Below are positions 16,760 through 55,236 of a stretch of 64,000 nucleotides of DNA, in pieces. The position numbers and the translations under genes are program-made. Within the stretch, counting starts at the first letter, position 1. Each line of letters starts with the position of its first letter. The notes beneath the pieces are model-generated. The model worked only from the letters and a program-made list of their open reading frames with translations. It had not been told where the DNA came from and made no database searches. The DNA is from Pacificibacter marinus (GTDB taxonomy: Bacteria > Pseudomonadota > Alphaproteobacteria > Rhodobacterales > Rhodobacteraceae), in NCBI RefSeq assembly GCF_018860505.1, contig NZ_JAHKPU010000019.1:375773-439772 (forward strand). Direction: 5' to 3'.

Positions 16760-17302
16760 CTAGAGCTTGGATAGTTTTTCTTGCAACTCGGCAAGCTGCC
16801 GTTTGATGTCACCTAAGTCTTCTTTGTCTTCCGTTTTGGAAGACGATGGTCTGGTGGGCCATGCGCCAGGTATTCCGCTTGTCATCGCCTTCAAAAACGC
16901 TTCTTGCTGCGCTTGAATGGCTTCCAACCCCGGAATTGTCGGGATGCTCGTTCCCATATTTTCCATCATGGTCGCAGAGCCACCGCGTAGCATTTCAAAG
17001 CTTTGTGCCAAAAATTGGGGCACCACAGAATTTACTTCTGTTGTGTAGCTGCGCACCAAATCGGTCAGCACCCCCAAAGGCAAAACACTTTCGCCACGCC
17101 CCTCATGTTCGGCAATGATTTGAAGAAGATACTGGCGGGTCAAATCATCACCTGATTTCAAATCAATGATCTGCACCTCGCGTCCAGCACGAATAAACCC
17201 AGAGATGTCTTCGAGTGTCACATAGTCAGATGTCTCGGTGTTGTATAAACGCCGTGACGCATACCGCTTGATCAAAAGCGTCCCGCTTTTTGAGTCAACC
17301 AT
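16760..17302 (-). CDS. phaR: Polyhydroxyalkanoate synthesis repressor PhaR
   Basis: PhaR represses phasin and PHA genes and is released when it binds nascent PHA granules. The 180 residues show the N-terminal PHB/PHA accumulation regulator DNA-binding domain (IKRYASRRLYNTETSDYVTLEDI, about 11-33, through the following 40 residues) and the PHB_acc domain near 75-115. The C-terminal third is variable and ends in a short Glu/Leu/Lys helix. It is the last gene of the phaC-phaP-phaR series. A TTGC-N3-GCAG near-palindrome at 17322-17332 upstream is a candidate autoregulatory operator. Confidence 0.95.
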   Translation of the reverse strand: MVDSKSGTLLIKRYASRRLYNTETSDYVTLEDISGFIRAGREVQIIDLKSGDDLTRQYLLQIIAEHEGRGESVLPLGVLTDLVRSYTTEVNSVVPQFLAQSFEMLRGGSATMMENMGTSIPTIPGLEAIQAQQEAFLKAMTSGIPGAWPTRPSSSKTEDKEDLGDIKRQLAELQEKLSKL

Positions 17303-17321
17303 GGGCGCCCCTCCCTAAATA

Positions 17322-17332
17322 TTGCATTGCAG
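17322..17332. promoter_or_regulatory. Candidate PhaR operator before phaR
   Basis: TTGCATTGCAG is one mismatch from CTGC-N3-GCAG, the type of site reported for Paracoccus denitrificans PhaR. It lies 20-30 bp upstream of the phaR start. Confidence 0.5.
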
Positions 17333-17409
17333 AAAGCCTATGCCCACGATTTTGGAAAAGCAAAAGAAAAGGCAGGTTTATATGAAACAGATTGTTCATA
17401 AAGACAGGC

Positions 17410-17500
17410 GAACAAAAACGGGCCCGCTCAAATGAGGGGCCCGTTTTGGTGCAATCTGTACGCAGGGAGGAGGAGGGAGGAGGCGCGCACAGGTTGCCAA
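17410..17500 (-). ncRNA. Candidate CcsR/cuckoo-like RNA in the phasin 3' region
   Basis: On the minus strand, just after the phasin stop, a 13-bp imperfect stem (17485-17497 with 17451-17463) holds a 21-nt loop made almost only of C and T, containing CCTCCTCCC and CTCCTCCTCCC. A strong terminator follows at once. C-rich loops of this kind, complementary to Shine-Dalgarno sequences, define the CcsR or cuckoo RNAs of Rhodobacteraceae, which are normally processed from the 3' region of DUF1127 genes. Here the host gene is a phasin. Processing to a separate RNA is inferred. Confidence 0.6.
17415..17447 (-). terminator. Terminator of phasin gene or its 3' RNA
   Basis: AAAACGGGCCC and GGGCCCGTTTT form an 11-bp perfect stem, extended by CTC/GAG towards the loop, with TTTTT on the minus strand. 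Confidence 0.85.
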
Positions 17501-17505
17501 AGAGA

Positions 17506-17949
17506 TTACTTAGCTGGTGCAGTCGCTTTTTTAGCGGCTTTCGTAACTTCGTCAGTTGCTTTTTTAGCAGCTGCAGTCACGTCTTCGCCCATGTCTTTGC
17601 CAGCGGCAAGCATCAGTTCAACAGTTTCCATTTGTACTGTTTTTGCAACTTCAGCAAAGGCAGCCATGTTTTCAGCGGCAAGCTCGGCTTGAGCAGATGC
17701 AAAATCTGTGAACGCTTTTGAATAGTCAGCAGGCTCAGCTTTTGCACCTGTGACGTCAGCCACTTTTGAGAGTGTTTCTTTTGTCCATTTGGAAGAAATC
17801 TCGGAAGATTTCTCAGCTGCAGCGATTGCAACTTTAGACATTTTATCGCTGAGCGATGCATTGGTTTTGAAACCGTCTTGGAATGCAGTCATGTCAACGG
17901 GGAATGCGCCCATCATGTCTTTCATGATTTTTGTGTAGTCTTCAGCCAT
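17506..17949 (-). CDS. phaP: Phasin
   Basis: Phasins coat PHA granules in the cytoplasm and set granule number and size. This 147-residue protein is largely helical, rich in Ala, Lys and Glu, with no Cys, and ends in an Ala/Lys-rich tail (KKATDEVTKAAKKATAPAK) typical of the family. I choose the ATG at 17949 because AGGAG stands 8 bases before it; the ATG two codons upstream is too close to that site. Two CTGC-N3-GCAG palindromes (18039-18049 and 18067-18077) lie upstream and are likely PhaR operators, so expression should rise when granules sequester PhaR. Confidence 0.92.
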   Translation of the reverse strand: MAEDYTKIMKDMMGAFPVDMTAFQDGFKTNASLSDKMSKVAIAAAEKSSEISSKWTKETLSKVADVTGAKAEPADYSKAFTDFASAQAELAAENMAAFAEVAKTVQMETVELMLAAGKDMGEDVTAAAKKATDEVTKAAKKATAPAK

Positions 17950-18038
17950 GATCATATCTCCTGAACTTATGTTCTGTGCGGAGGTGCTGGCCCTATGGCA
18001 GCAGATCCGCTTTGCTTCGTCTACAGTCAATATGGATG

Positions 18039-18049
18039 CTGCACCGCAG
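18039..18049. promoter_or_regulatory. Candidate PhaR operator 1 before phasin
   Basis: CTGCACCGCAG is a perfect CTGC-N3-GCAG palindrome, about 90 bp upstream of the phasin start and 28 bp centre-to-centre from a second copy. Confidence 0.7.
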
Positions 18050-18066
18050 CAAATCAAGTGAAGTTT

Positions 18067-18077
18067 CTGCAACGCAG
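18067..18077. promoter_or_regulatory. Candidate PhaR operator 2 before phasin
   Basis: CTGCAACGCAG is a second perfect CTGC-N3-GCAG palindrome in the phaC-phaP intergenic region, next to an AT-rich stretch (18079-18090). Confidence 0.7.
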
Positions 18078-18102
18078 CATATTTTTTCAAAACCAAACGG
18101 AA

Positions 18103-19896
18103 TCAGAGAGTTCCACGCGCTGTTACATATGTGCCTGGCGCCGGAGCCAGCTCAACCGCACCCGAATCACCAATATTGCGCGCAGGGATCATGTCGCCGG
18201 AACGCCCCTTGAGCCATGTTTCCCACCGCGGCCACCAACTGCCCTCGTTAAATTTGGCAGCGTCTTTCCACTCCTGAGGGGGCAGGCTCATGTCATCATT
18301 GGTATAATGGCCATATTTCTTTTTGCTGGGCGGGTTCACGATGCCAGCGATATGGCCTGATTGGGACAGAATAAAGGTTTTGTCCTCAGCCCCCATCTGA
18401 CGCACACCGTTATAGGAACTGGACCACGCCGCAATGTGATCGGTTTCGCAGCCAATCGCGCAAACAGGGACATCGACTTCGGACAGGTGCACGTGGGTGC
18501 CACAGATCGGAAAGCCCGTCGTCGCCAATTTATCGCCTTGGCAAAGGTGACGCAGATACTCGACCGCCATTTTGCCCGGCAAATTGGTGCCATCCCCGTT
18601 CCAATACAGCAAATCAAAGGCTGGTGGCGCTTCGCCCAACATATAGGACCGGATCGCAGGTTGATAAATCAGATCATTGGCACGCAGATACGAAAACGTG
18701 CGTGACATATAAAGAGAACTCATAATGCCTGTGCGTCTGGCCTCGACTTCGATCCCATCAACAAAGTCATCATCCAAGAACACGCCGACTTCGCCTTGAT
18801 CAGAAAAATCTGTCAAAGTGGTAAAGAATGTGGCCGAATTGACAGAAGTATCTTTGCGCTGTTTCAGCAGACCCAGCGTGATCGACAATGTGGTGCCTGC
18901 AATGCAATATCCCGTGACGTTGATCTTTGGCGCGCCAGTGATTTCTTTTACTTTATCGATCGCGGTTAAGAACCCCTCTTCGACATATTGATCCATCCCG
19001 ACCTCGGCATAGCTTTCGTCAGGATTCACCCAAGAGACCACGAACAACGTATAACCCTGATCCACGACCCACTTGATCAGCGAGTTTTTATCTTTGAGGT
19101 CAAGCACATAGAATTTGTTGATCCAAGGCGGGAACAACAACAACGGCACGTCATGCACCGTTTCGGTGCTTGGCGCATATTGGATCAGCTCGAACATCCG
19201 ATTGCGAAAGACCACAGATCCTTTCGTGGTGCCAAGATTGCGCCCCACTTCAAAAGCTTCCGTATCGGCCAAGCTGACAATCATTTGCCCGTCATGTGCC
19301 TCGATATCGCGCACAAGGTTTTCCAGCCCCGTCACCAGACTTTCGCCATTGGTGGCAACGGCTTGCTCAAGCGCATCTGGATTGGTGGCCAAAAAATTGG
19401 TGGGCGCAAGCATGTCAACGATCTGGCGCGTGAAATAATCAATACGTTTGCGATCACGCGCGTCCAAACCTTCGATGTCTTGCACAGCATCCGTCATCGC
19501 CTGCGCGTTGGCGACATATTGTTGTTTGATGAAATTGAAAAAGGGATGCGTATCCCACAAGGGGTTTGCGAAGCGGCGGTCTTTGGGCGTCTCATCATTT
19601 GGCGGCGTCAGGTCGCCTTTGGACAACCGGCTTTGCGCATCCGCGAAATGCGCCAGCGTTTTGCCCCAATAACCGATTTGATGCTCGATAATCTTTGCAG
19701 GATTGTTAATCATCTCGGCGGCATAGGCCGAAGCCGCCTTGACAAACAGATCATCGCTTGGGCCTTGCAGTGCTTTGGGAATCGGTTTTGAGCGCGACAT
19801 GGCGGCCGCAAGTCGTGTGGAAAGCTCTTCGATCTTGGCGATATTGGCGTTCATCACATCCAAATCACGGATTTCACTGTCTTCTTTCAGCGTCAT
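18103..19896 (-). CDS. phaC: Class I poly(R)-hydroxyalkanoate synthase
   Basis: PhaC polymerises (R)-3-hydroxyacyl-CoA, mainly 3-hydroxybutyryl-CoA, on granule surfaces. The 597-residue length fits class I synthases. The N-terminal PhaC_N domain includes FNFIKQQY and the catalytic core has the lipase-like box GYCIAG with Cys331. The catalytic Asp (ETDHIAAW) and His (SGHIAG) follow in order. It is divergent from phaZ and followed by phaP and phaR on the same strand, a layout known in Paracoccus and Rhodobacter. The start has a strong GGAGGTGA ribosome site. Confidence 0.97.
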   Translation of the reverse strand: MTLKEDSEIRDLDVMNANIAKIEELSTRLAAAMSRSKPIPKALQGPSDDLFVKAASAYAAEMINNPAKIIEHQIGYWGKTLAHFADAQSRLSKGDLTPPNDETPKDRRFANPLWDTHPFFNFIKQQYVANAQAMTDAVQDIEGLDARDRKRIDYFTRQIVDMLAPTNFLATNPDALEQAVATNGESLVTGLENLVRDIEAHDGQMIVSLADTEAFEVGRNLGTTKGSVVFRNRMFELIQYAPSTETVHDVPLLLFPPWINKFYVLDLKDKNSLIKWVVDQGYTLFVVSWVNPDESYAEVGMDQYVEEGFLTAIDKVKEITGAPKINVTGYCIAGTTLSITLGLLKQRKDTSVNSATFFTTLTDFSDQGEVGVFLDDDFVDGIEVEARRTGIMSSLYMSRTFSYLRANDLIYQPAIRSYMLGEAPPAFDLLYWNGDGTNLPGKMAVEYLRHLCQGDKLATTGFPICGTHVHLSEVDVPVCAIGCETDHIAAWSSSYNGVRQMGAEDKTFILSQSGHIAGIVNPPSKKKYGHYTNDDMSLPPQEWKDAAKFNEGSWWPRWETWLKGRSGDMIPARNIGDSGAVELAPAPGTYVTARGTL

Positions 19897-20025: not shown

Positions 20026-21327
20026 ATGCGATTCATGGCAAGCTATGACTTAATGGAAACCCTACGCACCACCAATCAGTGGTTCGGGGCGACTGCACAG
20101 GCGCTCGGCTCTTACCCTGCGGCCTCAATGACGGTGAACCCTGCATTGCAAATGATGGCAGCTTGGGGCGAAGTGACAGAACGATCTTTCGCGCGCATGG
20201 CGACCAAACCCGATTGGGGCATCGCCAGCGTTGTTGGCACAGACGGACGCGATCACATCGTTGATATCAATATCGAGATGACCAAACCCTTTGGCGATTT
20301 GATCCATTTCAACGTGCAAGGTCGTGATGAAATGCCGCGCAAGGTGCTAATCGTGGCCCCCATGTCAGGCCATTACGCCACCTTGTTGCGCTCCACCGTT
20401 GTGTCTTTGCTGCCCGATTGCGAAGTCTACATCACTGATTGGCACAATGCCCGTGATATTCCAGTGTCCGAAGGCAAGTTCGACATCGAAGATTACACAC
20501 TCTATCTCGTTGAGTTCATGAAATATATGGGACCACAAACCCATGTGATTGCCGTGTGCCAACCCGCCCCATTGACCTTGGCGGCAACAGCCTATCTGGC
20601 CGAAGAAGATCCCGCCGCGCAACCACGCACGCTGACATTGATCGGTGGGCCAATCGACCCAGATGCCACCCCAACGGATGTGACAGACTTTGGCAACCGT
20701 GTCACCATGGGCCAGCTTGAACAAAGCATGATTCAGCGCGTTGGGTTCAAATACAAAGGCGTCGGGCGCAAGGTCTACCCTGGCCTTTTGCAACTCTCAT
20801 CGTTCATTTCCATGAACGCTGAGACCCACGCCAAAGCCTTTACTGATCAAATCAGCCGCGTCGCCAAAGGCGAAGCCAGCGATCACGACAAGCACAACAA
20901 ATTCTACGACGAATACTTGTCTGTGATGGATATGACGGCTGAGTTTTACCTCTCAACGGTGGACCGCATTTTCAAAGGGCTTGAAATCGCCAAGAATGAA
21001 TTTGTTGTCGATGGCAAAAAAATCGACATCGGCAAAATCACCGACGTGGCGGTCAAAACTGTCGAAGGCGAGAACGACGACATCTCTGCCCCTGGCCAAT
21101 GTGTCGCGGCGTTGGACCTGTGTACAGGCCTACCAGACAGCAAAAAAGCCTTTCACCTAGAACCAGGTGCAGGTCATTACGGGATATTTGCAGGCCGAAG
21201 CTGGCGCAACAACATCCGGCCATTGGTTTTGGACTTTATTGACCAGAACTCAGGACCGCGCGTTGTGGCTGGCACGCAAACGGCCCCTAAAGCAAAGGCC
21301 AAGGCCTCTGCCAAAAAGGCGAGCTAG
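20026..21327 (+). CDS. phaZ: Intracellular polyhydroxyalkanoate depolymerase
   Basis: PhaZ degrades native PHA granules inside the cell to release 3-hydroxyacids. The 433-residue protein has the intracellular depolymerase pattern: an N-terminal region (SYDLMETLRTTNQWFGA), an alpha/beta hydrolase core with the nucleophile Cys178 in AVCQPAPL, a Cys in place of the usual Ser, and the late His in EPGAGHYGIFAG. The C-terminus ends in a Lys/Ala-rich tail (about the last 15 residues). The ATG at 20026 has GGAG 6 bases upstream; the ATG three codons later is an alternative. It is divergent from phaC. Confidence 0.95.
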   Translation: MRFMASYDLMETLRTTNQWFGATAQALGSYPAASMTVNPALQMMAAWGEVTERSFARMATKPDWGIASVVGTDGRDHIVDINIEMTKPFGDLIHFNVQGRDEMPRKVLIVAPMSGHYATLLRSTVVSLLPDCEVYITDWHNARDIPVSEGKFDIEDYTLYLVEFMKYMGPQTHVIAVCQPAPLTLAATAYLAEEDPAAQPRTLTLIGGPIDPDATPTDVTDFGNRVTMGQLEQSMIQRVGFKYKGVGRKVYPGLLQLSSFISMNAETHAKAFTDQISRVAKGEASDHDKHNKFYDEYLSVMDMTAEFYLSTVDRIFKGLEIAKNEFVVDGKKIDIGKITDVAVKTVEGENDDISAPGQCVAALDLCTGLPDSKKAFHLEPGAGHYGIFAGRSWRNNIRPLVLDFIDQNSGPRVVAGTQTAPKAKAKASAKKAS

Positions 21328-55062: not shown

Positions 55063-55236
55063 TTAAACGGGCGGTTTACCACGCACTGCACGGGCAATCA
55101 TCGCGACCACAAACAGGACAACGAATACAAAGAACAAGAACTGCGCAATCCCTGCAGAGGCACTGGCAATCCCGCCAAAGCCGAACACGCCGGCGATGAG
55201 TGCAACGATTAGAAAAGTAATGGCCCAACCTAACAT
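55063..55236 (-). CDS. DUF1328 small membrane protein
   Basis: The 57-residue protein starts [20 protein letters not shown] and has two hydrophobic segments, with [19 protein letters not shown] between and ending [10 protein letters not shown]. This is the YtjA/DUF1328 family, often found among stress-response genes; its function is unknown. AGGAG lies before the ATG at 55236. An EcfG-type promoter is 54 bp upstream on the same strand. A hairpin with a C-rich loop lies in its 3' region. Confidence 0.9.

Follow-up and report, generated by a model that had tools for sequence, protein, structure and literature searches.

A conserved hairpin at the 3' end of phasin mRNA, a candidate anti-Shine-Dalgarno regulator of phaR in Rhodobacteraceae

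We herein describe a hairpin that closes the phasin mRNA of Pacificibacter marinus; it is real and under selection, and represents a known loop type in a solo form hosted by a phasin gene. Given its structure, conservation, stem covariation, genomic context and pairing potential, along with the unusual leader of phaR, all of which we observed, we tentatively favour the reading that the phasin 3' end serves as an anti-Shine-Dalgarno RNA regulator, which would silence phaR within a double-negative loop that reinforces storage.

Results

The phasin hairpin and its terminator within the PHA locus

The element lies in a PHA locus of the window (the whole 64,000-nt stretch of DNA that was analyzed), where phaC, phaP and phaR all occupy the minus strand and phaZ is divergent:

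20026..21327, plus strand: phaZ, PHA depolymerase, context (NCBIfam TIGR01849)
18103..19896, minus strand: phaC, class I PHA synthase, second candidate target here (NCBIfam TIGR01838; leader AGGGAGGTG)
18040-18049 and 18068-18077, minus strand: two PhaR-box-like CTGCNNTGCA sites before phaP (pattern scan)
17506..17949, minus strand: phaP, phasin coding sequence, host of the element (Pfam PF09361 Phasin_2)
17451..17497, minus strand: hairpin with anti-Shine-Dalgarno loop at 17465-17483 (fold, family motif count, covariation)
17415..17447, minus strand: intrinsic terminator stem followed by a U tract (fold)
17323..17332, minus strand: PhaR-box-like site CTGCNNTGCA before phaR (pattern scan)
17308..17316, minus strand: phaR ribosome site AGGGAGGGG, proposed pairing site with 9 bp to the loop (pairing energy)
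16760..17302, minus strand: phaR, PHA synthesis repressor, proposed target (NCBIfam TIGR01848 equivalog, 142.7 bits)

The sites near phaP and phaR were located with what we take to be the PhaR-box pattern, which yields 11 sites in the whole window vs. 4.9 expected. This pattern agrees with the sites given in excerpts of PMC12542648.

The fold of 17390-17520 places the hairpin at 17497-17451 on the minus strand, with 4 + 9 pairs around one mismatch, and the terminator stem at 17447-17415, followed by a U tract. Thus, the 13-bp stem described in the initial annotation, as well as the terminator directly after it, was recovered, whereas the loop comprises 19 nt in the MFE fold (17483-17465, CCUCCUCCCUCCUCCUCCC, in which CCUCCUCCC is present twice) instead of the 21 nt reported there. 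The same annotation had named the host a phasin, in line with the Pfam PF09361 match of the protein (26.4 bits, cut-off 24.9); NCBIfam gave no match for it. The minus strand of 17390-17520 folds at an MFE of -44.2 kcal/mol, as compared with -27.1 +/- 3.3 kcal/mol for shuffled sequences (z = -5.1; 0 of 200 shuffles equal). Since the terminator stem is bulged, a simple consensus scan partly missed it and returned just a partly overlapping site at 17427-17408. A single motif hairpin was found by folding at the phasin 3' end of the window, and a scan for sigma-70-like promoters revealed none belonging to the hairpin itself within 17200-18150. No Rfam family matched the hairpin at the gathering score in the window, nor at the locus itself, searched up to E = 1.

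Conservation of the loop and covariation of the stem

Phasin matches were obtained in 19 of 20 same-genus genomes and in 264 of 295 family genomes (approximately one per genus). In total, 3' regions came from 140 of these 264 (those matching best and those matching most weakly), as well as from same-genus and further loci; in the first set, removal of 19 duplicates and one truncated region reduced 187 phasin loci to 167 distinct 3' regions of sufficient length. The loop motif, defined as CCTCCC, CTCCTCC or TCCTCCC at most 92 nt from the phasin stop, was present in 159 of the 167 (including one, L166, with CCTCCC beyond the terminator and no true hairpin) and was situated inside a predicted hairpin loop in 150, while shuffling of the same 3' stretch set the chance level at 8.6% (288/3340). 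A diverged sample of 55 genomes, drawn from the weakest matches to offset near-relative bias, was reduced by five that were not orthologous (G283, G078, G149, G228 and G191; E 5e-19 or worse); the motif was found in 37 of the other 50, in 35 of them within a hairpin by stem score. Overall, 196 of the 217 distinct 3' regions carry the motif behind the phasin and 21 lack it, so that the check on C-rich loop conservation set beforehand came out in favour of the initial annotation. Under a stricter rule (a 147-nt fold with the loop required ahead of the first T-rich run) the count of motif loops was 145/217, below the 196 regions with the motif. Loss of the motif was commoner at the diverged end (13/50 vs. 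8/167), and one same-genus relative (L004) has kept the terminator with the motif hairpin gone. Two motif hairpins after the phasin were seen by the strict rule in just three of the 217 relatives (L092, L309 and L338); in L092 the second one is the terminator itself. As far as the genomes compared here tell, the phasin is a nearly fixed host of the hairpin within the family.

The stem score around the motif averaged 19.8, as opposed to 11.0 with shuffled flanks, and reached at least 15 at 148 of 159 real motif sites vs. 385 of 3180 with shuffled flanks. Covariation was calculated on 37 of the 39 one-register hairpins scoring at least 15 (158 were scored; two near-identical ones were omitted), with shuffles and slides as controls. 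All nine stem pairs show changes on both sides, and hence the compensatory changes looked for in the stem are present; the covariation value was 0.660, in comparison to 0.252 +/- 0.027 for shuffled alignments (0/500) and at most 0.198 with the partner slid. Because these hairpins were chosen for the motif and a good stem, their invariant loop letters are no proof and their pairing percentage is favoured. A further alignment with variable stems out of register was excluded from pair counts. Across relatives, the loop of the phasin hairpin stays, while its stem sequence drifts with compensation.

The phaR leader as pairing target

The loop is predicted to pair with the phaR leader AGGGAGGGG over 9 bp at -16.7 kcal/mol (16S tail, -11.3). 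In a ranking of loop pairing among the 64 ORFs of the window phaR came first and phaC third; since a longer phaC leader, AGGGAGGTG, reaches -16.0 vs. -16.7 kcal/mol for phaR, phaC is the second candidate target in this genome. Among relatives, 76 of 134 phaR leaders contain GGGAGG and 102 of 134 contain GGGAG (counts from orthologues, hence non-independent trials), against a background of GGGAGG in 8 of 657 neighbouring ORFs, the starts of which were called mechanically. Moreover, in 28 of 45 loci phaR placed among the top 10% at its locus. Controls gave low counts: phaR of other families, sampled from 40 of 106 other-family genomes with a match (mainly the better scoring ones), carries GGGAGG in 1/40 and GGGAG in 8/40 leaders, and other PHA genes of the family carry GGGAGG in 1/56 (phaC, the start of which could be used at 56 of 165 loci), 0/56 (phaZ) and 0/167 (phaP) leaders. 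The leader counts and their controls therefore indicate that the phaR leader of this family is a closer match to CUCCC than to the usual anti-Shine-Dalgarno sequence, and phaR is the likeliest target of the loop. The initial annotation had proposed GGAGG-led messages in general; this range narrows to GGGAGG-type sites, phaR first.

The phasin loop and the phaR site seem to vanish together, but only weakly. GGGAG is found in the phaR leader of 115 of 159 genomes with the loop motif and 9 of 20 without it (p = 0.019, uncorrected for kinship), and GGGAGG in 85/159 and 6/20, respectively (p = 0.059); the loop-phaR pairing energies differ little between the two groups (p = 0.050). A loop paired with its own leader hardly outperforms permuted partners (8 of 200 permutations were as good). 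A letter-by-letter fit of loop and leader between species was considered as well and hardly any was found. Possibly, a DUF1127 array with the same loop could preserve the phaR site in genomes devoid of the phasin loop.

Similar hairpins elsewhere in the same genome

Such an array exists in the genome under study, on a different contig from the phasin locus (L188, positions 872-1540 of that locus, on contig C49), where a DUF1127 gene (71 aa) is followed by approximately nine motif hairpins and a final terminator whose loop is again UCCUCCC. It scores below threshold with both ar14 (53.0 bits, threshold 58.8) and CcsR1 (38.1 bits, threshold 65.3). We note that it resembles an unusually long CcsR/cuckoo-type array; the published cuckoo family reportedly comprises 2 to 4 adjacent motif hairpins. 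The likeness to CcsR/cuckoo RNAs proposed from the window sequence is borne out by this array, since its hairpins present such loops within one and the same genome.

Two solo hosts were also found. The DUF1328 gene of the window (55063-55236) is followed by a 22-pair hairpin (55049-54990, minus strand) whose loop contains UUCCUCCCC; together with a strong terminator it forms an element at 55049-54935 on the minus strand (fold z = -7.5). Another solo hairpin with a UCCUCCC loop and a terminator lies after chpT, a histidine phosphotransferase gene (L196/L217, contig C14, approximately 18880-18975). The hairpin is poorly kept at both hosts, occurring in 1 of 30 chpT loci (the genome's own) and 2 of 21 DUF1328 loci. 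Within 58 stretches (1.84 Mb, both strands), 37 of 55 motif hairpins adjoin a phasin gene, as do all 28 that pass the terminator rule, a rule that missed the DUF1328 hairpin.

Searches of the own genome with hairpin models yielded incomplete host lists. The model of the hairpin alone gave eight matches, of which three belong to the DUF1127 array and several others run antisense to ribosome sites with GGGAGG, and failed to recover the long-loop phasin hairpin of the window; the model of hairpin plus terminator, built from 29 sequences, gave 21 matches, mainly plain terminators. We also observed a terminator-like hairpin with the loop CUCCUCCUCCC at approximately 213420-213464 on the minus strand of contig C34 (L191). 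Model matches at L189, L192, L193 and L215 are antisense to GGGAGGA before an ATG and mark candidate further targets; one of these genes resembles, by eye, a putative acetyl-CoA synthetase gene.

Discussion

Relation to known RNAs

The phasin element shares with CcsR1-4 of R. sphaeroides and the cuckoo RNAs (RF02791, CcsR1) the C-rich CCUCCUCCC loops, the 3' UTR origin and the terminal terminator, and also stems that vary in sequence and are kept by compensation, as seen in 37 relatives selected for motif and register. It differs in being hosted by a phasin gene instead of DUF1127 and in consisting of one hairpin, whereas theirs number two or more; the CcsR1 and ar14 Rfam models do not match at the phasin locus. 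NfeR1/ar14 of Sinorhizobium meliloti (RF02344) likewise exposes CCUCCUCCC loops, but it has three hairpins, its own promoter and ntrBC as a target (excerpts of PMC10746234). According to the same excerpts, these loops block ntrB translation starts in a double-negative loop with its own regulator, NtrBC. For L092, a relative with two motif hairpins after the phasin, the ar14 model scores below threshold (31.3 bits of 58.8, E 0.035). In R. sphaeroides, SorX (RF02784) is similarly derived from a 3' UTR (PMC8625941, in the part available) and has a CCUCCC stretch and a terminator, although its host gene is different; sub-threshold SorX matches occur at L048, L049 and L082 (20.9 to 26.8 bits, threshold 46.6), and a further weak one at L098 on the reported minus strand. 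As would be expected of an anti-Shine-Dalgarno riboregulator, the phasin loop is predicted to pair, through 9 bp, with the ribosome site of phaR as a plausible target. MmgR is a small RNA of PHB control repressed by AniA/PhaR (PMC12542648, PMC8401924; both in excerpt); in contrast to the phasin element, MmgR of S. meliloti (RF00519) is a stand-alone gene that lowers phasin. Membership of the phasin hairpin in that family was considered and rejected, with no match in the window or at the locus itself; a weak match is present in one relative, L137 (23.6 bits of 41, E 0.6).

The pairing of phasin host and anti-Shine-Dalgarno loop had been put forward as new, and our search is consistent with this: among the listed matches, no title or abstract start mentions a phasin-hosted anti-Shine-Dalgarno RNA, although the cuckoo and CcsR papers (Reinkensmeier and Giegerich, 2015; CcsR, 2015), which lie outside that scope, might list phasin hosts. 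A word search for phasin and polyhydroxy- returned nothing in the main texts of small-RNA surveys of Ruegeria pomeroyi (PMC4809877) and Paracoccus denitrificans (PMC5107571), nor in the R. sphaeroides RNase E paper (PMC6238624).

Proposed mechanism and alternative explanations

We postulate that the 3' end of phasin mRNA would be an RNA regulator whose loop, of the CcsR/cuckoo/ar14 type, exposes an unpaired anti-Shine-Dalgarno sequence. This regulator would arise with every transcription of the phasin gene and be preserved by the adjoining terminator. Its acting form may be either the intact phasin mRNA or a cleaved fragment of ~80-90 nt; release of 3' UTR RNAs dependent on RNase E has been described for SorX and CcsR (excerpts of PMC8625941). 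By pairing with ribosome sites of the GGGAGG type, chiefly the phaR site, the loop would block translation. Phasin genes are under repression by PhaR, which in R. sphaeroides also represses its own gene (PMC12542648, in excerpt). PHA granules would titrate PhaR and thereby derepress both phasin and the autoregulated phaR, upon which the phasin 3' end would hold PhaR synthesis down with no rebound of the repressor. The double-negative loop between the phasin 3' end and phaR would thus render storage self-reinforcing, and the enrichment in phaR leaders together with the 9-bp pairing suggests such a loop, resembling that of NfeR1 and NtrBC, the nearest precedent that has been worked out. We infer small-RNA release, pairing in the cell, the translational block and the physiological outcome. 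The high abundance of the phasin transcript assumed in the initial annotation has a published parallel in the relative D. shibae, where it accounts for 10.1 and 12.4% of reads (PMC4069834, in the part available).

The presence of the same loop motif at several hosts within one genome could also mean that the phasin 3' end merely joins a pool of RNAs (from the DUF1127 array, DUF1328, chpT and phasin) that silences many GGGAGG-led messages, phaR being just one among them. This explanation, which we regard as doubtful, would accommodate the fit of the phaC leader, the model matches antisense to GGGAGGA leaders of other genes and the GGGAGG kept in phaR leaders of 6 of 20 genomes without the phasin loop, and ABC-transporter mRNAs are likewise predicted targets of NfeR1 (excerpts of PMC10746234). 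However, of the three solo hosts tested only the phasin is nearly fixed, and it is this host that adjoins phaR, whose leader fits the loop best among the ORFs of the window.

A distinctly improbable alternative is that the element serves stability or protein binding, e.g., for a DUF1127 protein such as CcaF1, with a loop that pairs with no mRNA. It does lie next to the phasin terminator, and the phasin message reaches very high levels in D. shibae (PMC4069834, in the part available); moreover, CcaF1 is reported to be an RNA-binding protein in CcsR maturation (excerpts of PMC10253847); yet plain stability requires no fixed loop above a drifting stem, and the loop is complementary to the unusual phaR leader, though the element may still bind a protein. 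Slightly less probable still is an action in cis, in which the loop would pair with the phaR site in a phaP-phaR read-through RNA, phaR being translated from its own promoter only. The short distance between phasin stop and phaR start (median 155 nt in 178 loci, below 400 nt in 162) and the single operon from phaC to phaR suggested by read coverage in D. shibae (PMC4069834, in the part available) would suit this mode, but a strong terminator separates phaP and phaR, and a pair acting in cis would be expected to co-vary between species, which it hardly does.

Returning to the silencing of phaR by the phasin 3' end, we consider it possible, with somewhat greater reserve, that phasin mRNA has a double function in this family, encoding the granule coat and silencing, through its 3' end, the granule-sensing repressor phaR. 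Should this hold, a widespread bacterial family would have an RNA arm in its carbon storage, for which our literature searches listed no test and in which the message of a coat protein controls its own repressor; a message able to reach a tenth of all reads would carry a feedback that lowers this repressor, through the type of loop employed by rhizobia in the NfeR1-NtrBC circuit. It would further explain the odd GGGAGG leader of phaR and could offer a handle on PHA (bioplastic) yield. Finally, it would show anti-Shine-Dalgarno hairpins reaching new hosts, yet becoming nearly fixed at one.
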